DNA of 64,000 nt from positions 310,001 through 374,000 of the forward strand of contig NC_083536.1 of the NCBI RefSeq assembly GCF_032362555.1, read 5' to 3'. A model generated the notes under the pieces. It made no database searches and was not told where the DNA came from. It was given only the letters and a program-made list of their open reading frames with translations. Positions 2,747-55,545 of the stretch are shown piece by piece. A program made the position numbers and the translations under genes. The DNA is from Amyelois transitella. Its lineage: Eukaryota; Arthropoda; Insecta; Lepidoptera; Pyralidae. How positions within the stretch are numbered: position 1 is the first letter of the stretch; every line of letters starts with the position of its first letter.

Positions 2747-3520
2747 TCAGTTTTTTGAAGGACTTAGATATAATCCTGCTCCCTTTTTATATGGTTTTAT
2801 ATACAAGGCCTTTCCTAAAGCAACAGATTCCATCATCTTGTTATGTCGTTTAGACTCTTCAAAGTTTTTCTGAGCTACTTTGTAATCATTAACAGCCTTT
2901 GCTATACCTGCCGCGCCACCAGCAAGTGAACCTAAAGCTGACAGACCGGCAAAGATGGGAATGAGCGGTAAAAAGCCTCCACATTTAGGAATGGGTATAC
3001 ATCGTGGTAAACGTGTACGTGATCCGTTATTTTTAGAAAATAGTCTTTTTGCGGTTGCATATGCAAAGTTTATAGTTGAACGCTTGTCCTTTGATTTAAT
3101 ATTTTTAAGCTTAGATTGTATATTTTTCACTACTTTCATAAATGAACGAACTCCAGCGCCAGCTTTGAGTTTTGCTTTCATTGCATTTTTTACAATCCAT
3201 GAAGCCAATTTTTCTCCTTTTCCAGCACTCTTCGATTTTATTCTTTTCTTAGCCATATTCAAAAGGTCTAAATCTGCTTTATGTCGAATGTTTAAATCCT
3301 TATTATTGTATGCAATATCGTGGTACATACAAGCTTCATCCAATTTATTTATACCTCGCTCACCTCTTAATAATCGTTTTTGAAGTTTAGTACCTGGTCC
3401 ACAAAACTGATATCCAGGAATATGTAGTTCGAAAGGTAAATTATTGATGACGTTATTTAAAATACCTCTTCCCTTCTTCATAGATATTCTTGAAATGAAG
3501 ATATTTATTATGACGCTCAC
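2747..3520 (-). CDS. Phospholipase A2-like (parvovirus VP1-type) structural protein
   Basis: Protein of 257 residues with a lysine-rich linker. Near residue 35 it has a PLA2-like core, GYQFCGPGTKL (Ca-binding-loop type) followed by the catalytic-type block DEACMYHDIAYN (His-Asp pair). This is the domain parvoviruses use to breach endosomal membranes, and related domains occur in insect Polintons/adintoviruses. Later there is a Gly/Ala-rich hydrophobic stretch (IPIFAGLSALGSLAGGAAG, about residues 187-206) that could be membrane-active. A second ATG at about 3481 (MKKGRG) is an equally plausible start. It lies between the integrase and protease genes. Assignment rests on motifs; capsid association is inferred. 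Confidence 0.75.
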   Translation of the reverse strand: MSVIINIFISRISMKKGRGILNNVINNLPFELHIPGYQFCGPGTKLQKRLLRGERGINKLDEACMYHDIAYNNKDLNIRHKADLDLLNMAKKRIKSKSAGKGEKLASWIVKNAMKAKLKAGAGVRSFMKVVKNIQSKLKNIKSKDKRSTINFAYATAKRLFSKNNGSRTRLPRCIPIPKCGGFLPLIPIFAGLSALGSLAGGAAGIAKAVNDYKVAQKNFEESKRHNKMMESVALGKALYIKPYKKGAGLYLSPSKN

Positions 3521-3526
3521 TTTATA

Positions 3527-4459
3527 TTACAATAGTAATGCATTCTTGTCCACCCAACTATTTTCTTTTTCACTTAAACCTAACCACTTTACATAAAGTT
3601 TATGACCTTTACGTTTAATAACTCTTTCAATAAGATAAAGTTCTGGAAATTTCGTTTTTTGTAATTCATATTCATAAAAAGCTCCCAAAATTTTCTGTTT
3701 ATGTTTGTCTTCTAATAGGTATGTTGGTGGATTCGTATCATTTACCTTGACAATAACGAATATTTCTGTCGACCAGTTGGGAGTGTATCCTTTATAAAAA
3801 TCACCTTTAAATTTACTTATCCGAACACTATCACCAACGTGGAACGTAGGCTTGCGGTATAAAACTCGCTTTTGTGCACGCAATATGTTACATCTAACAT
3901 GTATCTGGTTTACTTTATTTACGTCGACTGGTTTAAATTTAGTAGTACGGTGAGTAGTATTGTTATATTTGTCTACAACGGAATTTAAATTTGGTCCTAA
4001 CCATTTATAACAACCATACAAACTAAACATTTTGTAAAGATTACATTTTATTGTACGAATAACTCTTTCCACAATAGAAGCTTTTTTGGTGGAGTAGGTG
4101 GAATAATGATTAATGTCATATTTCTTACACAATTTATTAAAAGCATCATTATAAAATTCTTTGCCTAAATCAGTTTGTAAATTTATAGGTTTTCGTTTTG
4201 AACGAGATACAATTTCAAACATTGCTTTTGTCACACATTTTTTGTTTTTTGATTTTATAGGACATGTCCACACATATTTTGTAAAAGTATCTATTACAAC
4301 TAAAACATATTTATATCTTTTGTTAAAATAAGAATATTTCTGAAAATCCATAAGATCAGCTTGCCATAAGTCGTCTATTCCTTTTATAATTGTAAATCGA
4401 CGAGGTAAATTTCTTCTTGCTGCTTTATGAATTTCATCCACTATGTTTTTTTTGCTCAT
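3527..4459 (-). CDS. Polinton retroviral-type integrase with chromodomain
   Basis: Protein of 310 residues. The rve-type catalytic core begins near residue 30: WQADLMDF gives the first Asp, LQTDLGKEF the second, and the YSTKKASIVERVIRTIK block supplies the Glu, a D,D(35)E arrangement. The C-terminus carries a chromodomain-like segment, about residues 272-307 (LYLIERVIKRK, LYVKWLGLSEKENSWV). The enzyme would insert element DNA into the host chromosome. The N-terminal zinc-binding HHCC domain is reduced or absent, as often in Polintons. Its start overlaps the end of the upstream coiled-coil gene by 26 bp. The ORF is intact. Confidence 0.9.
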   Translation of the reverse strand: MSKKNIVDEIHKAARRNLPRRFTIIKGIDDLWQADLMDFQKYSYFNKRYKYVLVVIDTFTKYVWTCPIKSKNKKCVTKAMFEIVSRSKRKPINLQTDLGKEFYNDAFNKLCKKYDINHYSTYSTKKASIVERVIRTIKCNLYKMFSLYGCYKWLGPNLNSVVDKYNNTTHRTTKFKPVDVNKVNQIHVRCNILRAQKRVLYRKPTFHVGDSVRISKFKGDFYKGYTPNWSTEIFVIVKVNDTNPPTYLLEDKHKQKILGAFYEYELQKTKFPELYLIERVIKRKGHKLYVKWLGLSEKENSWVDKNALLL

Positions 4460-6165: not shown

Positions 6166-9030
6166 ATTTCCAGTACCAGCCGAGGCTGTCAAGGGGTCGG
6201 TCTAATCCTTTCTGCACGAATGGCTGAGTGTGTGAATGAGTATGAGTGTGTCAGCCCTCGTCTTCTATGGATTAGGCTGAAAGTTGGAATCACTCGGATC
6301 TTCGTTTTAGGTGTTTATGCACCGTGGGATGTGGGTTCGAGGGGTACAACTTCAGCAAAAAGCGAAAACGAGGAGTTCTGGAATAGTGTAAGAGAAGTAT
6401 TGAAAGTTACCAAGCCAAATGAGAAGATTATTATTATGTTAGGTGATTTTAATGGATGGGTGGGTGTAAAGCGTGATGGATATGAAAAGGTGCTTGGTGC
6501 GTTTGGTGACGAAAAGGTGAATGATAATGGAAGAAGTGTATTAGAAATTTGTCTAGAGTGGGATCTTTTTGTGTCGAACTCAATGTTTCAACATAAAGAG
6601 ATCCACACCTATACAAGAGTGGAAGGTATTTTAAAAAGTATGATAGACTTTGTGATTGTAGATGAAAGATTGAAGAACAAAGTGCTGGATACCCGTGCAT
6701 ATCGCGGTGCTGGCATTGACTCGGACCATTTACTGGTGATATCCCGGATAAGGGGTATCTTCAATCGTTGGCGGCACAGGGTAAGGGAGCAAACCAGCGC
6801 TTTGGAAAGAGTGAAAGTAGAAAATTTGCAAGATATGGATGTAGGTAAGAAGTATATTAATAGACTGAAGGATGAAATTGAAGATTTAGATGAGAGGAGC
6901 AATATTGAAGATGGATGGAAGGAATTTAAAGAAAGAATTGTGAAAGTAGCTGTTGAAGTGTGTGGTGTAAGTAGAAGAAGGAAAGGGAGAAATCACAAAA
7001 ATGCGTGGATGAGTAAAGATGTGCAAGAACTTGTGCGATTAAAGAAGAAAGCATGGCTGGATTTGTTAGCAGCAAAAGCTAACTTAAGAATGCAAGAGGT
7101 TATAGATGAGGATGTGAATGAAGCACGTAAGGAATATAAAAAAATGAAAGATTTGGTTAAGAAAGCTGTGATTAGAAAGAAAGAAGAGTATAAAGAGGAT
7201 TTTGATAAAAGGCTATCAGAAGACTTTCAGTCAAATCTGAAAGTATTCTGGAAATCCGTAAGGTCAGCCCGAGGAAAAACTATAACCAGAGAGCTGACTA
7301 GGATCAGATGCCAGGATGGTAGCGTTGTGAAAGGAGAAGAATGTGTGCTAAAGATATGGAAGGACTATTTTGAGAGTTTATTTGAAAAAAAGGAAGAAAA
7401 TAAGAAAGAGTTCTGCTATAGCGAAGAAAAAGAGAATGAGATGGAAGGCGAAATTGAAATGTTTGAAATTGTGGAAGCACTTAAGAGTATGAAAGCGGGT
7501 AAGGCTGCCGGGTATGATAGAGTGTCGGTCGAGATGCTTAAAGCAGGAAAAGGCGTCGTAGCTAGACAGTTGTACTGCCTTTTCAATTTGTGTTGGAGAA
7601 GCGGCCGAGTACCAAAAGATTGGTGTAAGGCTGTTATTGTGCTACTTTACAAAGGAAAAGGGTCACAACTGGACTGCAAAAATTATCGTGGTATAAGCCT
7701 GCTTAGCGTCGTCGGCAAATTGTATGCTAAGGTATTGATTAATAGAGTCAGGAATGAAACTGATGACAAAATATGGGATGCTCAAGCGGGATTTCGAAAG
7801 GGAATGGGATGTACTGATCAGGTCTTTTCTTTGCGGTGCATAGCCGAAAAGTTTTTGGCCAAGAGTCAAAAAGTCTATTGCACATTCGTGGATTTGGAAA
7901 AGGCCTATGACAGAGTTGAGAGGAATGAATTGTGGTCAGCACTTTCTATGCATGGGGTGAGCAGTCTCTTGATACGAGCACTGAAATCCTTATATGAGGA
8001 TTTGAGTGCTTGTGTCAGGATAAACGGAGCGCACACTGAGTGGTTTAAGATTGAGAAAGGTGTTAGGCAGGTATGTGTTGCGTCACCGTGGCTGTTCAAC
8101 CTATTTATGGATAGTTGTTTGACAGATTTGAAAGAGTCTGAAAGTGGATTAAGGATGAATGAGTTGCTCGTCAAATGTCTGCTCTATGCCGACGATCAGG
8201 TTATACTGGCGTCATCAGCGGAGGAGTTACAGGAGATGGTAAACTGTATGCATGAAGCTTTAAAAGAGAAAGGAATGAAAGTGAACGTAAGTAAAACTAA
8301 AACACTGGTTTTTGAAATGGAGAAAGAAATGACAGCATGTAATATTTTGATTGGAGGAGAAAAAGTTGAGCAAGTGAAAGAGTTTGTATATCTAGGATCA
8401 AAGTTTACATCAGATGGCAAGTGTGATAGTGATATTGAAAGGAGAGTGAACGCGGGGAACATGGTGAATGGAGCTTTGCATGCCTTTATGAGCAGTCAGA
8501 AACTATCCAAAAAGGCTCGACTGGCTGTGCACAGGGGCGTGTTGGTCCCGACATTAATGTATGGGAGTGAAAGTTGGGTATGGCAAAAGAAGCACGAAAG
8601 CAGAATAAATGCAGTGGAAATGAGAGCGTTAAGGAGTATGTTGGGTGTGAAATTGAGTGACCGGATAAGGAACAGCGTGATAAGGGAATGTTGTGATGTG
8701 AAAGAAGATGTAGTTACAGGAATAGAAAAGGGTATGTTGAGATGGTTCGGTCATGTGGAGAGGATGAATGAAAACAGGTTGACTAAGCAGATATACAAGG
8801 AGAGTGTGGAGGGAAAGGTCGGGGTGGGAAGACCTAGACGAACATATCTTGATCAAATTAAGGACGTCCTGGTGAAGGGTCAGGTCAAAAGTGCCCGAAA
8901 CCGCCGAGCTTGCATGAAGAGAGTTATGAATGTGGATGAAGCAAAGGAAGTATGCAGGGATCGTGGCAAGTGGAAAGAGGTAGTCTCTGCCTACCCCTCC
9001 GGGAAAGAGGCGTGAGTTTATGTATGTATG
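6166..9030 (+). mobile_element. RTE-clade non-LTR retrotransposon, copy 1 (5'-truncated)
   Basis: Flanked by an 11-bp target duplication TATAAAAACAA (6155-6165 and 9031-9041). It ends in a TATG microsatellite tail, as RTE elements do, instead of poly(A). The 5' end is truncated inside the endonuclease region; it aligns with about 16,545 of the full-length minus-strand copy. It is inserted antisense to the Polinton ATPase gene. Confidence 0.9.
6220..9015 (+). CDS. RTE ORF2: endonuclease-reverse transcriptase (N-truncated)
   Basis: 931 residues from the first in-frame ATG. It contains most of an AP-type endonuclease (LGDFNGWVG near residue 75, SDHLLVISR near 169) followed by the RT: YKGKGSQLDCKNYRGISLL, VDLEKAYDRV (motif A), VRQVCVASPWLFN (motif B) and LLYADDQVILA (catalytic Asp pair). 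Compared with copy 2 it has a Gly-to-Val change in motif B (VRQGC to VRQVC) and one extra Ile before LGDFN. The N-terminal endonuclease residues are absent because of 5' truncation, so it should be unable to move itself. No premature stop is seen. Confidence 0.9.
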   Translation: MAECVNEYECVSPRLLWIRLKVGITRIFVLGVYAPWDVGSRGTTSAKSENEEFWNSVREVLKVTKPNEKIIIMLGDFNGWVGVKRDGYEKVLGAFGDEKVNDNGRSVLEICLEWDLFVSNSMFQHKEIHTYTRVEGILKSMIDFVIVDERLKNKVLDTRAYRGAGIDSDHLLVISRIRGIFNRWRHRVREQTSALERVKVENLQDMDVGKKYINRLKDEIEDLDERSNIEDGWKEFKERIVKVAVEVCGVSRRRKGRNHKNAWMSKDVQELVRLKKKAWLDLLAAKANLRMQEVIDEDVNEARKEYKKMKDLVKKAVIRKKEEYKEDFDKRLSEDFQSNLKVFWKSVRSARGKTITRELTRIRCQDGSVVKGEECVLKIWKDYFESLFEKKEENKKEFCYSEEKENEMEGEIEMFEIVEALKSMKAGKAAGYDRVSVEMLKAGKGVVARQLYCLFNLCWRSGRVPKDWCKAVIVLLYKGKGSQLDCKNYRGISLLSVVGKLYAKVLINRVRNETDDKIWDAQAGFRKGMGCTDQVFSLRCIAEKFLAKSQKVYCTFVDLEKAYDRVERNELWSALSMHGVSSLLIRALKSLYEDLSACVRINGAHTEWFKIEKGVRQVCVASPWLFNLFMDSCLTDLKESESGLRMNELLVKCLLYADDQVILASSAEELQEMVNCMHEALKEKGMKVNVSKTKTLVFEMEKEMTACNILIGGEKVEQVKEFVYLGSKFTSDGKCDSDIERRVNAGNMVNGALHAFMSSQKLSKKARLAVHRGVLVPTLMYGSESWVWQKKHESRINAVEMRALRSMLGVKLSDRIRNSVIRECCDVKEDVVTGIEKGMLRWFGHVERMNENRLTKQIYKESVEGKVGVGRPRRTYLDQIKDVLVKGQVKSARNRRACMKRVMNVDEAKEVCRDRGKWKEVVSAYPSGKEA

Positions 9031-11963: not shown

Positions 11964-13172
11964 TAATACACAAACTGTTTGTTATTCATCCAAATTTATT
12001 TTATCAGCTTCAAAATATGCTCCTTTAGAAACGATACACTTACGCCAACGAATAATCCAATCATCAAAACATTTTTTAAACGCTGTTTCCGGAATTGAGG
12101 TCAGTTCTCGCCGCGAATTCTCTTTTATGTCTTCTACCGATTGAAAACGGGTGCCACGAAGTGGTAATTTGAGTTTAGGAAAAAGAAAAAAGTCGGCTGG
12201 AGCCATATCTGGTGAATATGGTGGTTGCTCGATGGTATTTGTTGAGTGTTTGGTTAAAAATTCGTTCACAATGATGGCCTTGTGCGAAGGTGCATTATCA
12301 TGGTGCAAAATCCAAGAATTTTCTTTCCACAAATCTGGCCTTTTTCGTCGGATTTGCTCTCTTAAACGCCGCATAACACTCAAATAATATTCCTTATTTA
12401 CCGTTTGACCTTCCGGCAAGAATTCCGAGTGCACAACACCGCGATAGTCAAAGAAAACAGTCAACATTACTTTGACTTTTGAACGACTTTGGCGTGGTTT
12501 TTTCGGTTTCGGTTCAGTTGGAAGGCGCCACTCCGAAGCTTGTTGACTAGTTTGCATGTCAAACTCGTAAACCCACGTCTCGTCACCAGTAACAATGCGT
12601 TTCATGAATGTTGGGTCGGAATTGACTCGTTCTAGCATGTCCTCAGCGACTCTCATGCGATTGAGTTTTTGAAAAAAATTCAGGTCTTTTGGGACTAGCC
12701 GAGCGGCAACATGTTTCATACCCAAATTATTAGTTAAAATGGTACGGATCGACTCGTGAGATACAGAAAGTTCGGTGGCTATCTCTCTCAAAGTTGAATG
12801 AGGATTTTCAGTCACTATTTCCTTCACTTTTGCGATGTTAACTTCAGTTGCAGACGTTGATGGCCTACCAGAGCGAGGCAAATCTTCCATCACATCTCGA
12901 CCGCTTTTGAACGCTTTGTACCACTCATAAGCACGAGTTTTTGATAAAGTCGATTCACCGTAAGCCTTCTGTAACATTTTCAGTGACTCCGAACACGATA
13001 TTCCATTGGCAATGCAAAATTTAAGACAAACTCTTTGTTCGATGTTTTTATCCATTATGAAATTAGCAATACACACTAGATATGATATAACTAAAAATAG
13101 CACTGTATTTAATGTAAACAACAGATGCAACTCAAACTCTGCGCCAAAATGGAAAACAGTTGTGCCAATCTA
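11964..13172 (-). mobile_element. mariner (Tc1/mariner) transposon
   Basis: About 1.2 kb with TA on both sides. The ends are imperfectly inverted: the right end read on the minus strand is GATTGGCACAACTGTTTTCC, and the left end has ATACACAAACTGTTTG. It is inserted between gag and protease of gypsy-0. Confidence 0.75.
11982..13055 (-). CDS. mariner transposase, intact ORF
   Basis: 357 residues from the ATG at 13,053-13,055 (MDKNIEQRV); an in-frame ATG 25 codons upstream adds a hydrophobic stretch not typical of the family. The N-terminus has two helix-turn-helix segments (about 1-115, including SLKMLQKAYGESTLSKTRAYEWYKAFKSG in part). The linker PRSGRPS matches the family. The catalytic triad is D,D(34)D: TGDETWVYEF, HHDNAPSH and YSPDMAPADFF, with exactly 34 residues between the second and third Asp. 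There is no stop or frameshift, so it may still encode an active enzyme; the ends are only moderately matched. Confidence 0.92.
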   Translation of the reverse strand: MDKNIEQRVCLKFCIANGISCSESLKMLQKAYGESTLSKTRAYEWYKAFKSGRDVMEDLPRSGRPSTSATEVNIAKVKEIVTENPHSTLREIATELSVSHESIRTILTNNLGMKHVAARLVPKDLNFFQKLNRMRVAEDMLERVNSDPTFMKRIVTGDETWVYEFDMQTSQQASEWRLPTEPKPKKPRQSRSKVKVMLTVFFDYRGVVHSEFLPEGQTVNKEYYLSVMRRLREQIRRKRPDLWKENSWILHHDNAPSHKAIIVNEFLTKHSTNTIEQPPYSPDMAPADFFLFPKLKLPLRGTRFQSVEDIKENSRRELTSIPETAFKKCFDDWIIRWRKCIVSKGAYFEADKINLDE

Positions 13173-13670: not shown

Positions 13671-16600
13671 TACATACATACATACATACATAACATCACG
13701 CCTCTTTCCCGGAGGGGTAGGCAGAGACTACCTCTTTCCACTTGCCACGATCTCTGCATACTTCTTTCGCTTCGTCCACATTCATAACTCTCTTCATACA
13801 AGCTCGGCGGTTTCGGGTACTTTTGACCTGACCCTTTACCAGGACGTCCTTAATTTGATCAAGATACGTTCGTCTAGGTCTTCCCACTCCGACCTTTCCC
13901 TCCACACTCTCCTTGTATATCTGCTTAGTCAACCTGCTTTCATTCATCCTCTCCACATGACCGAACCATCTTAACATACCCTTTTCTATTCCTGTAACTA
14001 CATCTTCTTTCACATCACAACATTCCCTTATCACGCTGTTCCTTATCCTGTCACTCAATTTCACACCCATCATACTCCTTAACGCTCTCATTTCCATTGC
14101 ATTTATTCTGCTTTCATGCTTCTTTTGCCATACCCAACTTTCACTCCCATACATTAATGTCGGGACCAACACGCCCCTGTGCACAGCCAGTCGAGCCTTT
14201 TTGGATAGTTTCTGACTGCTCATAAAGGCATGCAAAGCTCCATTCACCATGTTCCCCGCGTTCACTCTCCTTTCAATATCACTATCATACTTGTCATCTG
14301 ATGTAAACTTTGATCCTAGATATACGAACTCTTTCACTTGCTCCACTTTTTCTCCTCCAATCAAAATATTACATGCTGTCATTTCTTTCTCCATTTCAAA
14401 AACCAATGTTTTAGTTTTACTTACGTTCACTTTCATTCCTTTCTCTTTTAAAACTTCATGCATACAGTTTACCATCTCCTGTAACTCCTCCGCTGATGAC
14501 GCCAGTATAACCTGATCGTCGGCATAGAGCAGACATTTGACGAGTAACTCATTCATCCTTAATCCACTTTTAGACTCTTTCAAATCTGTCAAACAGCTAT
14601 CCATAAATAGGTTGAACAGCCACGGTGACGCAACACATCCTTGCCTAACGCCTTTCTCAATCTTAAACCACTCAGTGTGCGCTCCGTTTATCCTGACACA
14701 AGCACTCGAATCCTCATATAAGGATTTCAGTGCTCGTATTAAGAGACTGCTCACCCCATGCAAAGAAAGTGCTGACCACAATTCATTCCTCTCAACTCTG
14801 TCATAGGCCTTTTCCAGATCTACGAATGTGCAATAGACTTTTTGACTCTTGGCCAAAAACTTTTCGGCTATGCACCGCAAGGAAAAGACCTGATCAGTAC
14901 ATCCCATTCCCTTTCGAAATCCCGCTTGAGCATCCCATATTTTGTCATCAGTTTCATTCCTGACTCTATTAATCAATACCTTAGCATACAATTTGCCGAC
15001 GACGCTAAGCAGGCTTATACCACGATAATTTTTGCAGTCCAGCTGTGACCCTTTTCCTTTGTAAAGTGGCACGATAACAGCCTTACACCAATCTTTTGGT
15101 ACTCGGCCGCTTCTCCAACACAAATTGAAAAGGCAGTACAACTGACTAGCTACTACGCCTTTTCCTGCTTTAAGCATCTCGACCGACACTCTATCACACC
15201 CAGCAGCCTTTCCCGCTTTCATACTCTTAAGTGCTTCCACAATTTCGAACATTTCAATTTCGCCTTCCATCTCATTCTCTTTTTCTTCGCTATAGCAGAA
15301 ATCTTTCTTATTTCCTTCCTTTTTTTCAAATAAACTTTCAAAATAGTCCTTCCATATCTTTAGTACACATTCTTCTCCTTTCACAACGCTACCATCCTGG
15401 CATCTGATCCTAGTCAGCTCTTTGGTTATAGTATTTCCTCGGGCTGACCTTACGGATTTCCAGAATACTTTCAGATTTGACTGAAAGTCTTCTGATAGCC
15501 TTTTATCAAAATCCTCTTTATACTCTTCTTTCTTTCTAATCACAGCTTTCTTAACCAAATCTTTCATTTTCTTATATTCCTTACGTGCTTCATTCACATC
15601 TTCATCTATAACCTCTTGCATTCTTAAGTTAGCTTTTGCTGCTAACAAATCCAGCCATGCTTTCTTCTTTAATCGCACAAGTTCTTGCACATCTTTACTC
15701 ATCCACGCATTTTTGTGATTTTTTCCTTTCCTTCTTCTACTTACACCACACACTTCAACAGCTACTTTCACAATTCTTTCTTTAAATTCCTTCCATCCAT
15801 CTTCAATATCGCTCATTTCCTCTAAATCTTCAAATTCATCCTTCAGTCTATTAATATACTTCTTCCCTACATCCATATCTTGCAAATTTTCTACTTTTAC
15901 TCTTTCCAAAGCGCTGGTTTGCTCCCTTACCCTGTGCCGCCAGCGATTGAAGATACCCCTTATCCGGGATATCACCAGTAAATGGTCCGAGTCAATGCCA
16001 GCACCGCGATATGCACGGGTATCCAGCACTTTGTTCTTCAATCTTTCATCTACAATCACAAAGTCTATCATACTTTTTAAAATACCTTCCACTCTTGTGT
16101 AGGTGTGGATCTCTTTATGTTGAAACATTGAGTTCGACACAAAAAGATCCCACTCTAGACAAATTTCTAATACACTTCTTCCATTATCATTCACCTTTTC
16201 GTCACCAAACGCACCAAGCACCTTTTCATATCCATCACGCTTTACACCCACCCATCCATTAAAATCACCTAACATAATAATCTTCTCATTTGGCTTGGTA
16301 ACTTTCAATACTTCTCTTACACTATTCCAGAACTCCTCGTTTTCGCTTTTTCCTGATGTTGTACCCCTCGAACCCACATCCCAAGGTGCATAAACACCTA
16401 GAACGAAGATCCGAGTGATTCCAACTTTCAGCCTAATCCATAGAAGACGAGGGCTGACACACTCATACTCATTCACGCACTCAGCCATTCGTGCAGAAAG
16501 AATTAGACCGACCCCTTGACAGCCTCGGCTGGTACTGGAAATTCCAGACCAATACGCCGTGTAAGGGCCGTGCTGCGTCGCGTCGCATCCTTTCCGCTTC

Positions 16601-17090
16601 GTTTCATTCACGCACAACACATCCAAACGTCTTTCATCCATCATCTGGCATACTTCCTCAATCTTATCCTTCATTCCTCCTCTTACATTCATCGTCGCAA
16701 AGCGGCTTTCAGCAGACCGCATACCGCTCCCGCCGGGAACGAGACGTAATGGGGTGCGGACACCATCGCCGCCATTTATATGCTTTTTAAGGTTCATAAT
16801 GCGATTCCCACGAGACGCTAGGGAAAAATTTTGTCCGCCCCAGCAGAGCCCCGCATGCCAGGGTAAGGCTAGCCATTACCTGGGGGTCGCCCAACCCCAT
16901 GGCGGAAGTGGCACGCTCGAGACTAGGCTCGCCCCTAGCCATGCATCCATCGGCGCGGCAGACCTTAGATTGGCAGGGATTTACATTAAAGAGGAATCCC
17001 AAGTCTATCCCTTAGTCGGCTCTTACGACATCCGTGGGAAAGAGATGGAGTGGTCCTATTCTTTTGTAATGGTGCCGGGAACCACACGGC
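13671..17090 (-). mobile_element. RTE-clade retrotransposon, copy 2 (apparently full length)
   Basis: The 3' (TATG)n tail lies at 13,671-13,690, against the AATGAAGTA of gypsy-0. The 5' end is GCCGTGTGGTTCCCGGCAC at about 17,090. The leader of about 290 nt precedes one long ORF. No second copy of AATGAAGTA is found next to its 5' end; the matching copy is at 57,709-57,717, at the far end of LINE J1 (see findings). Confidence 0.9.
13696..16797 (-). CDS. RTE endonuclease-reverse transcriptase, intact 1033-aa ORF
   Basis: Single ORF as in the RTE clade. The endonuclease (about 30-270) has ATMNVRGG, VLCVNETKRKG (catalytic Glu), LGVYAPWD, IIMLGDFNGWVG (Asp/Asn) and DSDHLLVIS (terminal Asp-His). 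The RT (about 480-780) has NYRGISLL, VDLEKAYDRV, RQGCVASPWLFN and LLYADDQVILA. The C-terminal segment contains WFGHVERM and GRPRRTYLDQIKDV, common in this LINE group. It nicks DNA and copies its RNA by target-primed reverse transcription, and could also mobilise the SINE-like elements that share its 3' end. No disabling change is visible. Confidence 0.93.
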   Translation of the reverse strand: MNLKKHINGGDGVRTPLRLVPGGSGMRSAESRFATMNVRGGMKDKIEEVCQMMDERRLDVLCVNETKRKGCDATQHGPYTAYWSGISSTSRGCQGVGLILSARMAECVNEYECVSPRLLWIRLKVGITRIFVLGVYAPWDVGSRGTTSGKSENEEFWNSVREVLKVTKPNEKIIMLGDFNGWVGVKRDGYEKVLGAFGDEKVNDNGRSVLEICLEWDLFVSNSMFQHKEIHTYTRVEGILKSMIDFVIVDERLKNKVLDTRAYRGAGIDSDHLLVISRIRGIFNRWRHRVREQTSALERVKVENLQDMDVGKKYINRLKDEFEDLEEMSDIEDGWKEFKERIVKVAVEVCGVSRRRKGKNHKNAWMSKDVQELVRLKKKAWLDLLAAKANLRMQEVIDEDVNEARKEYKKMKDLVKKAVIRKKEEYKEDFDKRLSEDFQSNLKVFWKSVRSARGNTITKELTRIRCQDGSVVKGEECVLKIWKDYFESLFEKKEGNKKDFCYSEEKENEMEGEIEMFEIVEALKSMKAGKAAGCDRVSVEMLKAGKGVVASQLYCLFNLCWRSGRVPKDWCKAVIVPLYKGKGSQLDCKNYRGISLLSVVGKLYAKVLINRVRNETDDKIWDAQAGFRKGMGCTDQVFSLRCIAEKFLAKSQKVYCTFVDLEKAYDRVERNELWSALSLHGVSSLLIRALKSLYEDSSACVRINGAHTEWFKIEKGVRQGCVASPWLFNLFMDSCLTDLKESKSGLRMNELLVKCLLYADDQVILASSAEELQEMVNCMHEVLKEKGMKVNVSKTKTLVFEMEKEMTACNILIGGEKVEQVKEFVYLGSKFTSDDKYDSDIERRVNAGNMVNGALHAFMSSQKLSKKARLAVHRGVLVPTLMYGSESWVWQKKHESRINAMEMRALRSMMGVKLSDRIRNSVIRECCDVKEDVVTGIEKGMLRWFGHVERMNESRLTKQIYKESVEGKVGVGRPRRTYLDQIKDVLVKGQVKSTRNRRACMKRVMNVDEAKEVCRDRGKWKEVVSAYPSGKEA

Positions 17091-33973: not shown

Positions 33974-34381
33974 TCTTTAACACTAAAAATAAAAAAAATA
34001 ACTATATTTATTTTGAACAGTTACAATCACGATGATTCTATTTAATTTTGAAGAAATCTACGTAAAAACTATGTAAAAACACTCTAATAATTTAACACTA
34101 TCAAAGTTTTGCTATAAGATTATTAAAAAGCGTCAAGAATTAATAATATCAATTAAAAACGACTCACCACACTCACAGTAAACACTCACTTAAACTTTAG
34201 AATAATCCCGCTTTGTTTGTTCCAATTTGAAACTGACAGCTAAATTTTCGTTACCATAGCCAATATTCGTTTGTTTATCGAACGATCCGTTCGACACAAC
34301 GATCGCGACAATTGCGTTACATTGGCTAGGAAATGTTTATCGTTATCTCTAAGACGAAAAAGAACTTCGACATCGTTTCGT

Positions 34382-35352
34382 TAAGAAGCGATACTACATT
34401 GTCTAAGCCTCCTGTCCGTGTACAGCAGTCGATACCAGTCAGCAACAGTGATGAGAGTATGACGACCTCTACGGGCCCATCTGGTGACAACCAAAACGTG
34501 ACACTGAGGATGAAACCTACACCTGCTGTGGAGGAGTTCGTATTAAATGACTCAAGGGACGAATCTATAAACTCACAGGATCCTATGACGGATGTGAAGG
34601 CATTAGCGGAGGAACTTCGAGCTATGCGACGAGAGATTAGCAGGATGTGCGATAAAATCGACAAAATTGACTCTTTTGCCAACACAGTCAATATGCGAAT
34701 GGACAGGATGGAGGCGAGAATAGATTCTCTTGAAAACAAGAAAACAGAATTTGAAAGTTGTAGAATAATTGCGCTAGAGGAAACAGTGTCTCAACTAAAA
34801 TTAGAAATTCAGGATCGGGATCAAGAGGTACTCGGAAACGATATTGAAATCGCTAGCTTCCCAGAGGGAAAAAATGAAAACACGACCCATTTGATCTTGA
34901 CAGTAGCCAAAAAGCTAGGCGTAGAACTGGAAGAGCGTGATGTAGTTAAGGCGCAACGAGTGGGGCCGGTGCCTGCGCCCGCGGAGGAAGGCGCGGTGCG
35001 GCGACCGCGGCCTCTCGTGGTGCGGCTGGCGCGGCGCGATACCCGCGACTCGCTGCTGCGCGCGGCGCGCGTGCGTCGCGGCGTCACTACGGAGGGCATG
35101 GATCTCCAGGCTCCGGGTCCATCACGTAAGTTTTATGTAAACGAGAGGCTCACCAAAGTAAACAGACGCCTATTTCAAAAGGCGCGAGAGGCGGCAAAGC
35201 GCGCAAATTTCAGATTCGTATGGACCCGTGAGGGTAAAATATATACAAGGAAAGAGCAGGGAACGGCAAGTATCCGGCTTCGCACGGATTGTGACATAGT
35301 CAGGGTTTTTGAAGACTGTAATGTTGGGTCCGAATATGGAAATATGCAATAA
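34382..35352 (+). pseudogene. LINE-3 ORF1 C-terminal part, coiled coil and FP25K-like domain (copy 1)
   Basis: About 320 residues: coiled coil (about 85-170 of the open frame: ALAEELRAMRREISRMCDKI), then a baculovirus FP25K-like domain with VKAQRVGPVPAP, RRPRPLVVRLARRDTRDSLL and FYVNERLTKVNRRLFQKARE. An FP-like ORF1 is presumed to bind LINE RNA. The first residues of the open frame (from 34,333) are Harbinger-end sequence. The PHD-like N-terminus is 4 kb upstream, so no normal ORF1 protein is made. Local GC jumps between about 34,960 and 35,110. Confidence 0.8.
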
Positions 35353-37481: not shown

Positions 37482-37889
37482 TCTTTAACACTAAAAATAA
37501 AAAAAATAACTATATTTATTTTGAACAGTTACAATCACGATGATTCTATTTAATTTTGAAGAAATCTACGTAAAAACTATGTAAAAACACTCTAATAATT
37601 TAACACTATCAAAGTTTTGCTATAAGATTATTAAAAAGCGTCAAGAATTAATAATATCAATTAAAAACGACTCACCACACTCACAGTAAACACTCACTTA
37701 AACTTTAGAATAATCCCGCTTTGTTTGTTCCAATTTGAAACTGACAGCTAAATTTTCGTTACCATAGCCAATATTCGTTTGTTTATCGAACGATCCGTTC
37801 GACACAACGATCGCGACAATTGCGTTACATTGGCTAGGAAATGTTTATCGTTATCTCTAAGACGAAAAAGAACTTCGACATCGTTTCGT

Positions 37890-38860
37890 TAAGAAGCGAT
37901 ACTACATTGTCTAAGCCTCCTGTCCGTGTACAGCAGTCGATACCAGTCAGCAACAGTGATGAGAGTATGACGACCTCTACGGGCCCATCTGGTGACAACC
38001 AAAACGTGACACTGAGGATGAAACCTACACCTGCTGTGGAGGAGTTCGTATTAAATGACTCAAGGGACGAATCTATAAACTCACAGGATCCTATGACGGA
38101 TGTGAAGGCATTAGCGGAGGAACTTCGAGCTATGCGACGAGAGATTAGCAGGATGTGCGATAAAATCGACAAAATTGACTCTTTTGCCAACACAGTCAAT
38201 ATGCGAATGGACAGGATGGAGGCGAGAATAGATTCTCTTGAAAACAAGAAAACAGAATTTGAAAGTTGTAGAATAATTGCGCTAGAGGAAACAGTGTCTC
38301 AACTAAAATTAGAAATTCAGGATCGGGATCAAGAGGTACTCGGAAACGATATTGAAATCGCTAGCTTCCCAGAGGGAAAAAATGAAAACACGACCCATTT
38401 GATCTTGACAGTAGCCAAAAAGCTAGGCGTAGAACTGGAAGAGCGTGATGTAGTTAAGGCGCAACGAGTGGGGCCGGTGCCTGCGCCCGCGGAGGAAGGC
38501 GCGGTGCGGCGACCGCGGCCTCTCGTGGTGCGGCTGGCGCGGCGCGATACCCGCGACTCGCTGCTGCGCGCGGCGCGCGTGCGTCGCGGCGTCACTACGG
38601 AGGGCATGGATCTCCAGGCTCCGGGTCCATCACGTAAGTTTTATGTAAACGAGAGGCTCACCAAAGTAAACAGACGCCTATTTCAAAAGGCGCGAGAGGC
38701 GGCAAAGCGCGCAAATTTCAGATTCGTATGGACCCGTGAGGGTAAAATATATACAAGGAAAGAGCAGGGAACGGCAAGTATCCGGCTTCGCACGGATTGT
38801 GACATAGTCAGGGTTTTTGAAGACTGTAATGTTGGGTCCGAATATGGAAATATGCAATAA
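37890..38860 (+). pseudogene. LINE-3 ORF1 C-terminal part (copy 2)
   Basis: Second identical copy of the coiled-coil/FP25K-like region; this one is followed by the continuous ORF2. It lacks the PHD-like N-terminus. Confidence 0.8.
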
Positions 38861-49528: not shown

Positions 49529-49860
49529 ATAAGGTTATTCAATAACACCGTCAATAAAACACAATTGAGTTTCTCTGAAATGAAAGTAGTTGTTTATTTT
49601 ACATTGTAAACTAAATAATACGTATTCACATTGAATATCATATTTACATACCTGAAATGAAAGAAACGACATTTAATGTTTATAATACGGTGTCAGTTTC
49701 TGTTTTTCCAAATTATTTAAAAGTGCAAAATATCGAGTCGGTTATGAAATGTATTTTCTTCATATAGACAAATCAAATGACGCGGCTCGGTGACATTGAC
49801 GTATGTTATTCGCGGAAAAATTTGAAATAAGAAAAGTGCCTATAGGTGATTTTCTTTACA
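49529..49860 (-). repeat. gypsy-2 3' LTR
   Basis: 332 bp; minus strand begins TGTAAAGAAAATCACC. Preceded on that strand by the polypurine tract GGAGGGGAGA (49,861-49,870). Confidence 0.95.
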
Positions 49861-51619
49861 TCTCCCCTCCAAGAAAAGATGATACAACGGGTGTCCGTGC
49901 ATGCATAGGAGCTGGCGTTAACTTCGAGATGTGGAAGAAGTTTGACTCAGATTTCCTATAGTCAGTATCTATCTTGTAAATTGAGTCTGATATTTTTTCT
50001 ATGATCTTGTAGGGTCCAATCTTCAATTCATCAAGTTTTTTCCTATTTAGTTTGTTACCATTTTCCACAAAAACAATATCACCAACTTTGAAGTCTTTAT
50101 ATCTTCGATTTTTGTCATAAATTGTCTTGTTGTAGTTATGTGATCGGATTGTATTTTCCAGAGCTCTCTTCCTGTCTTGAATTAAATCACATTCAGTTTT
50201 TTTCTGTTTCAATTCATTTGGCAGAATTGTAACATCTGTGCCATAAAGTAGGTACTCAGGGGCATATCCAGTGACTGTGTGCTCTGTTTCATTATATTTC
50301 TTTACACAGTTTTGTGCTATAGTTGACCATGCTACTTTCCTGTCTTGATCATTTATGTTACATCTGATTTTGTTTACCAATGTTTGGTTTAGCCTCTCAT
50401 TTAGGCCATTTGAAAAAGGCGAGTTTACTGCTGTAAATATTATTGGAATTTTCTTTTCTTTTAAAAAATCTTTAAATTCCTTAGAATTGATTCCCGGGTA
50501 TTGATCTGATAGTATCATTTCAATGTCATCAGCTTCTGAACATTTTTTTATGAGTTTGATGAAATCATTTGCATTTTGAGTACTGGATGTCAATATATAT
50601 GCATATCTAGTAAAGTGATCTGATAGTAGATGTAAGTATCTCTTTGTCGATCTGGATCCTCCGAAACCTCCAATGGTGTCAATGGAGCATATTTGAAAAG
50701 GTTTTGTTGCAGGACCTAAGTGAGACATCAATCCATATTTATTTTTTCCTCTCGATTTGTTCTTTAAGCATACTATACAATTTTCACATACGTTTTTTAT
50801 ATTATTTGTCATGTTTTCTGCTGTATATATGGAGCTAATCATTCTCTGCATTTGTTTAATTCCAATATGACCCAGTTCTGTATGTACGTTATGTATTAGT
50901 TGTATGCTGAATTTCTCTGATATTATTATTTTGTCTTTTTTCTTGACTGTCTTATAGTACACATTGTTTTTCATTTGTAACTTGTCTTTTCTACACTGTA
51001 TATATTCATTTTCCACTTGATCTTGTAGGATATCTTTTAGTGTTATTGTGTTTACTACTTTTAACTGTTCCTCTATATTGTCTTCTGGTTCAAGGACTGG
51101 ATTCCTGCTTAGGCAATCGGCTTCAATGTTAAATTTACCTGGACAATATTTTACTTGGAAATCATATTGTGATAAGTAATGTGTAAGATCACCTAATTCT
51201 TCATCAGTTCTAGATTTTATGTTCATATTCTCCAGTGGCTTATGGTCTGAAAATACAATGAATTTTTTACCTATTAACAAATGCTGCCAATACTGTATAC
51301 ATTCTTTGATTGCAAGACATTCCAGATATATTGCTTTCTTTCTTTTTTGTACTTCATTTAATTTTTTTGAGAAGTATGCCACTGGCTTTTCTTCATTGTT
51401 TTGTTGTGGTTGTTTCAAAACTGCTCCTACTCCTAATATACTAGCATCTGTGTATATGTGGATAGGTAAATTTGGATCATAGATTGTTAATATTGGCTGA
51501 GAGCATAATATTTGTTTCATTTCTTCAAATGATTCTTGACATGCTTCAGTCCAGTTAAATATTTGCCCTTTTCTCAATAGGCTATGTAATGGTTCTAATT
51601 TTATTGCTATATTTGGCAC
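49856..51619 (-). CDS. gypsy-2 pol, RNase H and integrase
   Basis: 587 residues. RNase H: IYTDASILGVGAVL (Asp), YLECLAIKECIQYWQHLL (Glu), FSDHKPLENM (Asp). Integrase: zinc-binding HHCC region with CENCIVCLKNK, core CSIDTIGGFG, ILSDQYPGINSKEF and PFSNGLNERLNQTLV (D,D,E), and a C-terminal domain with FKVGDIVFVENG. The stop lies in the 3' LTR. It starts in another frame than the RT immediately upstream, so a small frameshift at about 51,620 separates them. Confidence 0.9.
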   Translation of the reverse strand: MPNIAIKLEPLHSLLRKGQIFNWTEACQESFEEMKQILCSQPILTIYDPNLPIHIYTDASILGVGAVLKQPQQNNEEKPVAYFSKKLNEVQKRKKAIYLECLAIKECIQYWQHLLIGKKFIVFSDHKPLENMNIKSRTDEELGDLTHYLSQYDFQVKYCPGKFNIEADCLSRNPVLEPEDNIEEQLKVVNTITLKDILQDQVENEYIQCRKDKLQMKNNVYYKTVKKKDKIIISEKFSIQLIHNVHTELGHIGIKQMQRMISSIYTAENMTNNIKNVCENCIVCLKNKSRGKNKYGLMSHLGPATKPFQICSIDTIGGFGGSRSTKRYLHLLSDHFTRYAYILTSSTQNANDFIKLIKKCSEADDIEMILSDQYPGINSKEFKDFLKEKKIPIIFTAVNSPFSNGLNERLNQTLVNKIRCNINDQDRKVAWSTIAQNCVKKYNETEHTVTGYAPEYLLYGTDVTILPNELKQKKTECDLIQDRKRALENTIRSHNYNKTIYDKNRRYKDFKVGDIVFVENGNKLNRKKLDELKIGPYKIIEKISDSIYKIDTDYRKSESNFFHISKLTPAPMHARTPVVSSFLGGEM

Positions 51620-51623
51620 ATAT

Positions 51624-52367
51624 TTATGATAAGTTTATTTTTCCCAAAAACTGTCTCACATTTTTCTGAGTTTTAGGTGTGGGGAAATTTTTTATTGATA
51701 TCAAGTTATCTTTCAGCGGTCTGACTGAATTATTCTGTATTACATGACCCAAATATTTGACTGAGTCTTTTGCAAATGTGCATTTAGAGAATTTGAGTTT
51801 CATGCCCTCACTTTTAATTGCTTGAAATAGTTGTCTCAGTTGTTCGATATGTTCTGTGAATGTTTTTGAATATAATAAAATATCATCGATGAAACAAACT
51901 GTGAACTCACTGAGCTTGTGCTTCCGTATAATATTACACATTATCCTTTGGAATATGGCTGGAGATGTCTTCAAACCGAAAGGCAAACAAGTCCATTGGT
52001 AATGGCCTTCCTGAGTCACAAATGCAGTCTTGTATTTATCTGTAACACGTAAAGGTATAGACCAGAACGCTGAATTTAGATCTAGTGTTGAGAAAAACTT
52101 GCAATCTCTTGTTTTTACTATGAGATCTTCAATAAGGGGGAATGGCTGTGACTGAGGCACAACTATTCTATTCAAGTCTCTGAAATCTATGCATAACCTT
52201 GATTTTTTTTTTTCATCTCTTTTATAAGCCAATGTAACTGGTGCTGCAAATGGGCTGTAAGATTCTTCTATTATATTTTTTTCTAGTAATTTCGCAACCT
52301 GGTTCTCAATTTCCTTCTTGTCTTCCAAAGTGCAACGATATGGTCTTTTACTGCAATATTTTTCTAT
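51624..52367 (-). pseudogene. gypsy-2 pol, reverse transcriptase
   Basis: RT with SRLCIDFRDLNRIVV, STLDLNSAFWSIPL (motif A), CLPFGLKTSPAIFQ (motif B) and VCFIDDILLYS (motif C). Begins at the COQ8-like insertion (52,379/52,367) and ends in a frameshift at 51,624. The N-terminal edge continues from the protease reading frame at 53,867. Confidence 0.88.
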
Positions 52368-52379
52368 TTGAAGATCAAT

Positions 52380-53590
52380 CAATACATCGAGATCATCAAG
52401 GCGGCGTCGGACGGCGACCGCCAGGCCATCCTCCAGATGTCTCGCCAGATGAAGTTCCTCACGGGATACGAGTCGAAGATAATGGAAGAAACCCACGTGG
52501 ACACAGTAATGATAATGGGCGAAGTATTCACAAGCGAAGTTTCCGGAGAATTCGACTTTGGTGCCCAGAAAACCACACATCGGATCCAAGCGTTGGTACC
52601 CACCATTTTGAACCATAGACTTTGTCCTCCTCCCGAAGAAATTTACTCTCTACACAGAAAACTATCCGGCGTTTTCTTGCTGTGCTCAAAAATGAAGATC
52701 AAAATGAATTGCAGGAATATGTTTAACGAGATTTATGTGCAATATAAGAATAACAGCATTAGGTAAAGATAATACGAATTTACGTCGCCAGAGCGCGCCA
52801 CTTGGGTAAAATTTAATAATTGCCATTCTCATTCCATTTTGTCTATGGGTTATTGCTATTACTTTTAATTCGCTATAATTTAATATCTATATATAATCTT
52901 TACGCAAAGTCTATTACAGTTTAACCCAACCCAGAATGATAGGTTTTTCAAACTGTATTCAAATGTGATCATACTATCATTCCACGATAAAGTGGCGACC
53001 TCTGGTGAAGATTAACAAAAACTAACGATTTTATGAACGTATCCTCGATAGGTATCGCAAATTCACAAAAATATATATAATTATTAACTAGCATCATTAT
53101 TTTGTCACATTTCTTTAAGGCTCAAGTTTCGGTGCTCCACTCCGTTGGCTTAACATCTTATTCCTAATTCCGGGCATAAGATATCCTACGGTCAGTATAG
53201 ACTGGTCACATAATTCCTTTAGCTGCTTTTTAGTATTATTTTAAACCAACCTAATAAGGTAAAGCTTAAAATTAATGCAATATTTAGTATAAATATCATC
53301 ATTTTAATTGCCCCTTAAGAGCTAAGGCACCTTAAGTTAATGGAACTCGTATATCGCAAATGAGTTGACCATTATATGTTTATGTATACCTATTTTGCAA
53401 GATTTCTAGGTTTGTTTGTATTGTTTATCTGTGTATTTGTACTTAATAAAAATATGTTTTAACTACGAGTCCAGCTATCGAAGCTTTTAAGATTGACGCT
53501 TTCACGCACAATTGTTCCGATTTTGATGAAATTTGGTGGATAACCAGATATTGAAAAAGGTCATGTTTATTGTTAAGATGTATAAAAAGT
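52380..53590 (+). pseudogene. COQ8/ADCK-like gene fragment, 5'-truncated retrocopy
   Basis: Coding to 52,766: about 128 residues resembling the C-terminus of the COQ8/ADCK3-type atypical kinase of mitochondrial ubiquinone synthesis (MSRQMKFLTGYESKIMEE, FDFGAQKTTHRIQ, LCPPPEEIYSLHRKLSG). Then an 824-nt 3' UTR containing AATAAAA at about 53,446 but no poly(A). It runs straight into a SINE-like element (53,591-53,854). TTGAAGATCAAT lies directly before it (52,368-52,379) and directly after the SINE tail (53,855-53,866), so gene fragment and SINE arrived together. ATP-site motifs of the kinase are absent, so it is not a functional enzyme. Confidence 0.85.
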
Positions 53591-53854
53591 GCCGTGTGGT
53601 TCCCGGCACGAATACAAAAAAGAATAGGACCACTCCATCTCTTTCCCATGGATGTCGTAAAAGGCGACTAAGGGATAGGCTTACAAACTGGGGATTCTTC
53701 TTTAGGCGATGGGCTAGCAACCTGTCACTATTTGAATCTCAATTCTATCATTAAGCCAAATAGCTGATCGTGGCCATTCAGTCTTTTAAAGATTGTTGGC
53801 TCTGTCTACCCCGCAAGGGATATAGACGTGACTATATGTATGTATGTATGTATG
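53591..53854 (+). mobile_element. RTE-derived SINE-like element (copy B), fused to the COQ8-like fragment
   Basis: Starts GCCGTGTGGTTCCCGGCAC, ends with (TATG)n. The target duplication is not at its own 5' end but 1.2 kb upstream, before the COQ8-like sequence. Confidence 0.92.
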
Positions 53855-53866
53855 TTGAAGATCAAT

Positions 53867-54451
53867 GTGTGCTTCATAGTCACTGACCTTTCCTATATCA
53901 TATTTATCCTTTGCAAACACAGATTTGTTACATGATATTAAATCTTCAATCACTGCTTGTTTAGTATAATCTAGATGGTTAATGCAAATTACAAATTTTT
54001 CTCCTCTGATATCTTCATTATAGTTTACAGAATTTTCAAATTTTGTTTCCTTATTATCAATATCTGTTTTTCTTGTTTCCTTAGAAACTATTTCACATTT
54101 TTGTTGAGGTATTTTTTGACAAATGTTTAACTTCTCATCTTGAACTAGGGAGAATTCTTTAATACAGTCTAGTCCCACTAGGAAGTCGTAATCGAAATTT
54201 TCCTCATCTATTACAAAAACCTTCATTTTTTTTTCCATATCAAAAATAGCTATATCTAGTTCTACCATTCCTTTTGCTTTTTTAACGCCATTAATTGTTT
54301 TTAAATTAGTATTATTGGAACATATACCTTTCATTGTTTTTATCTTTAGCAATTTTGAATTGATCAATGATACATTAGACCCTGAGTCATAGATCCCAAA
54401 TACTTCAACATTTTTATTAAGTACTAATTTAAGCTTAATCAATGGCGGCAC
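53867..54451 (-). pseudogene. gypsy-2 protease and RT N-terminal linker
   Basis: Retropepsin with GIYDSGSNVSLI at about residue 19 (Ser replaces the usual Thr of DTG, a tolerated variant) and DYDFLVGLDCIKEF (second block), then a charged linker to the RT. The frame is entered from gag by a -1 shift at 54,457-54,463. Cut at 53,866 by the COQ8-SINE insert. Confidence 0.82.
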
Positions 54452-54453
54452 TA

Positions 54454-55545
54454 TTAGTTTTTTTGGTCTTCACACTGCAATTCACATTCTAGTTCAGAAT
54501 TGTTGACAAGTTTTATTTGCTTCTTATATTTTTCAGTATTTATTCTTTGCTTAAACCAACAGGAATCTTCTGGATGATATCGTGTACCTTTATTTAATTT
54601 TTCGCAAATTGTACATTTTTCTTTATTTGGCTTAGTGTCTTCTTTCTTTTTAATGTATTTTTTTCTTTGTACCAAATGTTCTAATTTGCCTAGTTCATTA
54701 AATAAGTCTCTAACATGAGAAATTTCTTCTTTGTTAATCCGGTCAGTTATAAAATCTGGTAAGCCCGCTGCAATTATATCGATCAGAGTCCCTTCATCAA
54801 TTGTTTTTCTTTCTTCTAGTAATAGTCTCTCTTTTTTTATTGCATAATCTAACAAAGACCCTAATTGATACTTGAAAGTTAAAGCATATTTGCTGGAAGT
54901 CCAACCTTTATTGGTATAGGTTTGCAGAAAACTGGATTTCCATTCTGACCACTCTGAATCCAAACCATATCTTATCATCATAGATGAATACCACTCAATG
55001 CATGATTTTTCTAAAAATAATCTGAAAATTTCTATTTTTTCTTCATCTTTAGAAATACTGAACCTTGCATATTCTTTTTCCAATATTTCCATCCACTGAT
55101 ATGCACTTGTATTTTTTCCATTATATTTTTCAATGACAAATCTCTCGGCTAACTTTTTCATATTTTTTTTTTCTACATTTTGTTTATTTTCTACTAATTT
55201 CTCCAAAATTTCCACAATAGGATCTTCCGAAGACATTTCTTGTGTAGTTTCCTCTAGAAATTGATCCGAAAAAATCATGTTTCTATCCTCATCAACATAT
55301 GTTTCTAATATATCCTGTGTCGCTTTTATCCACACATTTCTTGTTTGATTCCTTTTTTTTAATGTACTTTTGACTGTAGCATAGTTTTTTGTACATAGAA
55401 TCTGTTTGTGAAATGATATATGTTGATGCTTTTCAGGAATGAGATATACTTTGTTATCTTGCGTGGCGATTGAGGTTATGGCAATAAAGTTTGACTTTCC
55501 ATCCACTGTTGGTTTTACTTGGAATGTAAACCTTAATTTTTCCAT
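54454..55545 (-). CDS. gypsy-2 gag
   Basis: 363 residues. The middle has a capsid-type helical region (VIEKYNGKNTSAYQWMEILE, about 140-290) and the C-terminus has a Cys/His cluster CTICEKLNKGTRYHPEDSCW, a spaced variant of a zinc knuckle. Ends at 54,454 just after a slippery heptamer. The ATG is only about 23 nt from the 5' LTR, an unusually short leader. Confidence 0.82.
   Translation of the reverse strand: MEKLRFTFQVKPTVDGKSNFIAITSIATQDNKVYLIPEKHQHISFHKQILCTKNYATVKSTLKKRNQTRNVWIKATQDILETYVDEDRNMIFSDQFLEETTQEMSSEDPIVEILEKLVENKQNVEKKNMKKLAERFVIEKYNGKNTSAYQWMEILEKEYARFSISKDEEKIEIFRLFLEKSCIEWYSSMMIRYGLDSEWSEWKSSFLQTYTNKGWTSSKYALTFKYQLGSLLDYAIKKERLLLEERKTIDEGTLIDIIAAGLPDFITDRINKEEISHVRDLFNELGKLEHLVQRKKYIKKKEDTKPNKEKCTICEKLNKGTRYHPEDSCWFKQRINTEKYKKQIKLVNNSELECELQCEDQKN
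54457..54463 (-). promoter_or_regulatory. gypsy-2 gag-pol -1 frameshift heptamer
   Basis: A AAA AAC in gag phase directly before the gag stop TAA; the -1 frame leads into the protease. Confidence 0.8.

Follow-up and report, generated by a model that had tools for sequence, protein, structure and literature searches.

The end of a spliced COQ8 mRNA and a complete SINE entered an LTR element of the lepidopteran Amyelois transitella as one unit, and this chimeric retrocopy was probably made by template jumping, in which reverse transcription would have passed from SINE RNA onto COQ8 RNA. The unit lies in a window of 64,000 nucleotides, the whole stretch of DNA that was analysed, which corresponds to C32:310001-374000 in the searched assembly (33 contigs, 327 Mb). 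A LINE that depends on its own 3' end is not expected to copy ordinary mRNAs, and the origin of retrogenes in insects rich in such LINEs is therefore puzzling. The apparently young COQ8-SINE case, with its empty sites, its parent and its exact junction, shows that an mRNA can be carried along by a SINE.

The inserted unit and its source RNAs

The unit spans 1,475 bp between two copies of a 12-bp direct repeat, TTGAAGATCAAT, at 52368..52379 on the 5' side and 53855..53866 on the 3' side (no strand assigned). It interrupts the ORFs of a Ty3/gypsy-type LTR element on the minus strand (49856..55545), which is identified by Pfam matches to reverse transcriptase, RNase H and integrase and in which gag-like and protease-like regions are recognized by eye only. 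The site is intact, with a single TTGAAGATCAAT, in five of five sister elements (L046-L050; 97-99% identity, all on C32); this count comes from the best 40 of 47 candidates, and the next copies listed are at most 76% identical. Joined directly, the 90 bp on each side read as a single open frame of the LTR host. The TTGAAGATCAAT repeat is a true target duplication, and the single open frame and the five empty sites establish that COQ8 and SINE arrived in one event, which is what the initial annotation had claimed for the COQ8 coding end, its 3' UTR and the SINE. The focal target also resembles that of other SINE copies. The signature of 38 of them favours A/T 9-12 nt upstream of the duplication, and 1.2% of background positions reach the focal score. 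RTE-clade LINEs are reported, in the available text of PMC13295347, to have a run of thymines some ten nucleotides upstream.

Two independent insertions, a COQ8 retrocopy first and a SINE at its 3' end later, are hardly credible as the origin of this arrangement. Nested transposable elements are common in the window, as judged by eye, but a second insertion should have left a second duplication. The sole duplication found encloses both parts, and a search up to 45 bp from the SINE 5' end agrees with the earlier remark that the SINE has no duplication of its own. Moreover, COQ8 on its own would have no tail of such kind.

The COQ8 part begins within the penultimate coding exon (52380..52478, plus strand, 5'-truncated mid-exon), which is 98% identical to an exon on contig C31 and stops where the parental exon ends at an intron. 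The last coding exon with its stop codon follows (52479..52766, plus strand), supported by the parental match, a PDB match and its translation, and then 827 bp of 3' UTR and its continuation (52767..53593, plus strand), delimited by alignment to the parent. Positions 52380-52763 encode 128 residues that match COQ8A/COQ8B structures (best PDB match COQ8A, E 4.3e-46), and the translation equals the parental one over all 128; Pfam assigned no family to the 132-aa ORF. The retrocopy aligns with three blocks of one C31 gene at 98%, 96% and 93% identity. The COQ8 parent is a single gene on C31, and the protein search of the genome returned no further COQ8 retrocopies, all three of its matches being the focal copy and two parental exons. 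A 916-bp GT..AG intron splits the coding part in the parent, whereas the exons are joined at that place in the retrocopy. The loss of this intron means that the source RNA of the COQ8 part was spliced. An intron between the parental exons was the check that had been suggested for an mRNA intermediate, and the intermediate is supported.

The retrocopy probably derives from a COQ8 allele distinct from the reference haplotype. Four codons differ from the reference parent, one at the last base of the first exon, and all four differences are synonymous (4 per 77.7 synonymous sites, about 5%). Had the substitutions accumulated in the retrocopy without constraint, the chance of four out of four synonymous would be ~0.003, given a transition-weighted synonymous fraction of 0.23. 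Furthermore, the reference parent's 3' UTR holds an insertion of 1.57 kb as well as a mariner at a TA, and the retrocopy has neither. The synonymous differences and the two missing insertions together point to a different donor allele, which the codon differences would mostly reflect, and the retrocopy itself is probably young. In the reference COQ8 3' UTR (C31:10785001-10795000), the mariner sits just before the position of the chimera junction, alongside the 1.57-kb insertion, and its ORF resembles, by eye, an ORF at 11982-13130 of the window.

The SINE is full-length (266 nt; 53589..53854, plus strand), and its best other copy, on C30, is 100% identical over 266 bp. Its 3' end (53788..53854, plus strand), which carries the (TATG)n tail, is shared with LINEs: the last 62 and 67 nt of the SINE can be aligned to the 3' termini of two LINEs in the window, one with an ORF at 6220..9015 (plus strand) and the other at 13696-16797 (minus strand). 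The alignment confirms the LINE-type tail that had been read from the letters. In the partner LINE, Pfam detects a reverse transcriptase and, below the cut-off, an endonuclease; that both LINEs are RTE-type is suggested by the ORF, by the (TATG)n tail and by lepidopteran pairs in the literature. Rfam gave no relevant match that would place the origin of the SINE's Pol III promoter in a small-RNA gene, and the predicted SINE 5' hairpin is unremarkable (z -0.88).

The COQ8-SINE junction

At the junction the two sequences overlap. COQ8 homology extends to 53593, and its last five nucleotides, GTGCC (53589-53593), are also the first five of the SINE. The overlap between parent and SINE is exactly GTGCC, or AAAAAGTGCC (53584..53593, plus strand) if the A run that frequently precedes these SINEs is counted; GTGCC occurs only twice in 1,214 nt of COQ8 sequence. 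Parental sequence beyond the mariner is TAtaaaaagtgcctaaatag, and the retrocopy has TAtaaaaagtgccGTGTGGTTCCCGG at the same place. In the reference haplotype there is no SINE at the parental junction, where the 3' UTR goes on 'taaaaagtgcctaaatag'. The SINE in the unit has its own tail, lies in the same sense as COQ8 and joins it directly. As had been observed at the outset, no poly(A) separates them, and the five A at the junction are parental sequence. Since poly(A) is absent from the end of the mRNA copy, the unit differs from a classical poly(A) processed pseudogene. The copied COQ8 3' UTR has a single AATAAA (53445..53450, plus strand) and no ATTAAA, and COQ8 homology ends 148 nt past the first base of that signal (53445). 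The next AATAAA in the reference parent lies 252 nt beyond the junction, which makes a long COQ8 3' UTR, and with it a transcript extending past the first poly(A) signal, plausible.

For the template jump we infer an RTE enzyme as the agent, a free SINE RNA as the first template, pairing of the cDNA end and a long COQ8 isoform. The enzyme would nick the LTR element and begin cDNA synthesis, primed at the (TATG)n tail of the SINE RNA. On reaching the SINE 5' end, the cDNA would end in ...GGCAC, often with an extra T, and could pair with AAAAAGUGCC in spliced COQ8 RNA extended past its first poly(A) signal. Synthesis would then continue along the COQ8 RNA and halt in the penultimate coding exon, and sealing of the product would leave the 12-bp duplication. 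Such a jump would account for a reference parent that is free of SINE, for the exact SINE 5' end and for an overlap unlike those of the sampled ordinary insertions. It is favoured because of the GTGCC overlap, fillers that repeat the SINE itself, the A that often precedes GTGCC, one U6-SINE fusion in this genome and published U6 chimeras (see below).

An appreciable minority chance goes to a different history, in which the donor COQ8 allele already had this SINE in its distal 3' UTR and a read-through transcript was mobilized through the SINE tail, which would be a 5' transduction. Both models use RTE machinery and the SINE tail. The donor allele evidently differs from the reference in its synonymous sites and in the two insertions, the SINE is young by its identity to another copy, and the downstream AATAAA allows a long 3' UTR. 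On the other hand, the reference parent has no SINE, the model needs priming within an mRNA or cleavage at the SINE tail, and it needs the 5-nt GTGCC overlap to have formed at an ordinary SINE insertion, which is seen in none of 40 copies with a near duplication. The initial annotation had proposed a host transcript reading into a SINE in or after the 3' UTR. This part finds no support in the reference parent, where no sense SINE lies downstream of the junction for 10.2 kb and the first one is 81% identical. A parental locus without the SINE had been named as the finding that would speak against read-through, and the reference haplotype has such a locus; read-through is not thereby fully refuted, because the donor allele was another haplotype.

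Several points count against template jumping. The difference between donor and reference haplotypes means that the donor allele may have held a SINE. SINE cDNA joining COQ8 DNA in an ordinary insertion could equally give the GTGCC overlap, and the hypothetical SINE target in the COQ8 3' UTR is acceptable by the signature, although a score that 25% of other positions reach says little either way. Reverse transcriptase jumps usually land on RNA 3' ends, and the acceptor here is an internal site on a transcript that must pass its first poly(A) signal. According to the available text of PMC4476161, U5 jumps are internal and U6 jumps are not.

A further proposal is that a COQ8 transcript, after read-through, was linked to a distant SINE by splicing or trans-splicing before retrotransposition; this is very improbable. 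The parent has a GT at the junction, between AAAAA and GTGCCT, so that a weak donor is formally conceivable, and splicing is favoured for several L1-mRNA chimeras in the available text of PMC13174262. But the donor would be poor, and the acceptor would have to match the exact SINE 5' end. The 21.2 kb downstream of the parental junction, moreover, contain no full-length young sense SINE; the sense matches there are the 81% copy at 10.2 kb and two pieces of 60 and 19 nt near 19.6 kb. Splicing and two independent insertions jointly take only a small share of the probability, and the remainder is assigned to unforeseen explanations.

Other SINE insertions and fusions in the genome

How unusual the focal overlap is can be judged from 56 SINE copies, a non-random sample made up of the closest relatives of the focal SINE and bystanders in fetched loci. 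By an exact-match rule, 40 of the 56 have a near duplication; the focal copy is among the 16 without one, and the other 15 (of 55) qualify the lack of a second chimera described below. The duplication overlaps the SINE start by 0-2 nt in 18 of the 40, and fillers of 1-15 nt separate them in the other 22. Overlaps of at least 3 nt occur in 0/40, compared with 5 nt in the focal unit, which suggests that an overlap the size of GTGCC is rare in ordinary insertion. Fillers of at least 4 nt are present in 14 of 41 copies (L008 added). They share 85 matched nt with the SINE's first 40 nt, against a shuffled mean of 50.6 (0/2000 shuffles equal this), with 33 of the 85 supplied by L007 and L008. Furthermore, in 20 of the 28 duplication-flanked copies that begin at GTGCC, the preceding base is A. 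We read this as a reverse transcriptase that often re-engages its template or adds T at the SINE 5' end. At L007, L008 and L038, a partial repeat (about 13-20 nt) of the SINE's own 5' hairpin precedes the SINE; L007, L008 and one L038 copy, whose partial repeats are largely alike, could represent one subfamily rather than separate self-jumps.

Scans for distant duplications covered 47 copies to 1.4 kb and 83 copies to 2.4 kb where the locus allowed, partial copies included, and revealed no convincing second mRNA-SINE chimera, which counts against jumping. They returned weak matches of 8-12 bp and two stronger ones, of 22 bp at L037 and 16 bp at L026. The L037 duplication was considered as a chimera and is read as a SINE nested in a SINE. 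At L026 (4584-4911, on C27), a LINE 3' end runs into the SINE from nt 86 onward, and the two lie between the copies of a direct repeat (16 bp as an exact match, some 46 bp as an imperfect one judged by eye); this is a possible LINE-SINE template jump.

A fusion with U6 RNA is also present. The U6 search gave 9 matches (48 candidates scored), and a DNA search gave 11, comprising 5 full-length copies and 6 fragments, four of which end exactly at the U6 3' end. In one of these four, L061 (1501-1638; C13:3079510, the same locus as L064), a 5'-truncated U6 with an oligo-T end passes straight into SINE nt 88 in the sense orientation. From its sequence this is an old U6-SINE chimera, of the kind that a jump onto U6 RNA should leave; the SINE part is 88% identical and has lost its 3' end, and no duplication was detected around the fusion. 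No SINE adjoins the U6 3' end in the other five of the six fragments or in the five full-length copies. The age of this chimera and its lack of a duplication count against jumping as an account of the COQ8 case.

Known systems, implications and neighbouring elements

The comparisons that follow concern the available portions of the cited papers. U6 template switching is published for LINEs of the L1, L2 and RTE clades and for SINEs, and the U6 chimeras ascribed to it include RTE-like and L2-like LINEs and AnolisSINE2; L2/RTE-clade LINEs, with their stringent RNA recognition, are said to form U6 copies only as chimeras (PMC4476161). Like the COQ8-SINE unit, these are copies of a foreign RNA fused to a retroelement, for which template switching is invoked. 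In the present case, however, the acceptor is a spliced mRNA entered internally with a 5-nt overlap, and the host is an insect. The opossum U6-RTE and U6-RTESINE1 chimeras are described without a clear duplication (PMC4476161), whereas the COQ8-SINE unit has one.

In the Magnaporthe MINE, WEIRD RNA is fused to the MGL LINE or to Mg-SINE (PMC2104539), so that here too a host RNA copy is joined to a LINE or SINE by a template switch. Unlike the COQ8-SINE unit, MINE has one abundant non-coding RNA as its partner, and its junctions are described as lacking micro-homology (PMC2104539), which counts against jumping. Human L1 provides 17 cases of 5' transduction of mRNAs or lncRNAs in hg38 (PMC13174262), which resemble the COQ8-SINE unit in having mRNA exons 5' of a retroelement within one duplication. 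In the MAP3K13 and FHIT cases no source L1 turned up at the parental gene (PMC13174262), as no SINE did at the junction in the reference haplotype of COQ8. On the other hand, 15 of the 17 lie at transcript starts, a splice donor marks the end of six, and the L1 is in most cases nearly complete; the COQ8-SINE unit joins last exons and a 3' UTR to a SINE, and its fusion point shows no evident splice junction. Template switching is not the explanation that the authors prefer for an L1-mRNA chimera containing a splice junction (PMC13174262), and this too counts against jumping.

Among Lepidoptera, a template switch from HaSE1 RNA to 5S rRNA has been suggested as the origin of Helicoverpa HaSE3 (PMC3272025). 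HaSE1 and HaSE3 are, by description, like the focal SINE in having RTE-derived tails, but they are amplified families and the COQ8-SINE unit is a single retrocopy. A survey of eight lepidopteran genomes counted 1993 retrocopies, ascribed mainly to non-LTR elements, and reports gene copies near SINEs or LINEs (PMC11675541); the available text does not describe a SINE-fused junction such as that of COQ8, and its main text does not contain the word RTE. A literature search of titles and abstract openings, with subscription journals largely outside it, found no insect case in which RTE machinery had produced an mRNA-SINE chimera. The present case differs from those above in combining the mRNA of an intron-containing gene, internal entry with an overlap, an RTE-tailed SINE and verified empty sites.

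More generally, and tentatively, free SINE RNAs may serve as adapters for host mRNA retroposition where LINEs, such as those of the RTE clade, demand a specific tail. The SINE would provide the tail and the priming, and its 5'-terminal cDNA (GGCAC, often with an added T) would anneal to AAAAGUGCC-like sites in mRNAs. If so, retrocopies without poly(A) should arise at predictable sites. The COQ8-SINE unit yields a testable rule: the junction should lie where the mRNA matches the SINE 5' end.

Several other features of the window and its contig were observed. Among the five closest copies of the host LTR element, those at C32:1729302 and 1731152 form an inverted pair, and C32 might be the W chromosome. 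On the minus strand, ORFs at 2747-4459 have a phospholipase A2-like domain, a retroviral-type integrase core and a sub-cut-off chromodomain; we take them to suggest a Polinton/adintovirus-like element, near the RTE-type LINE at 6220-9015. Two LINE copies 3.5 kb apart (34333-35352 and 37841-38860) have identical 1,020-bp ORFs, as either a recent duplication or repeated insertion would produce.
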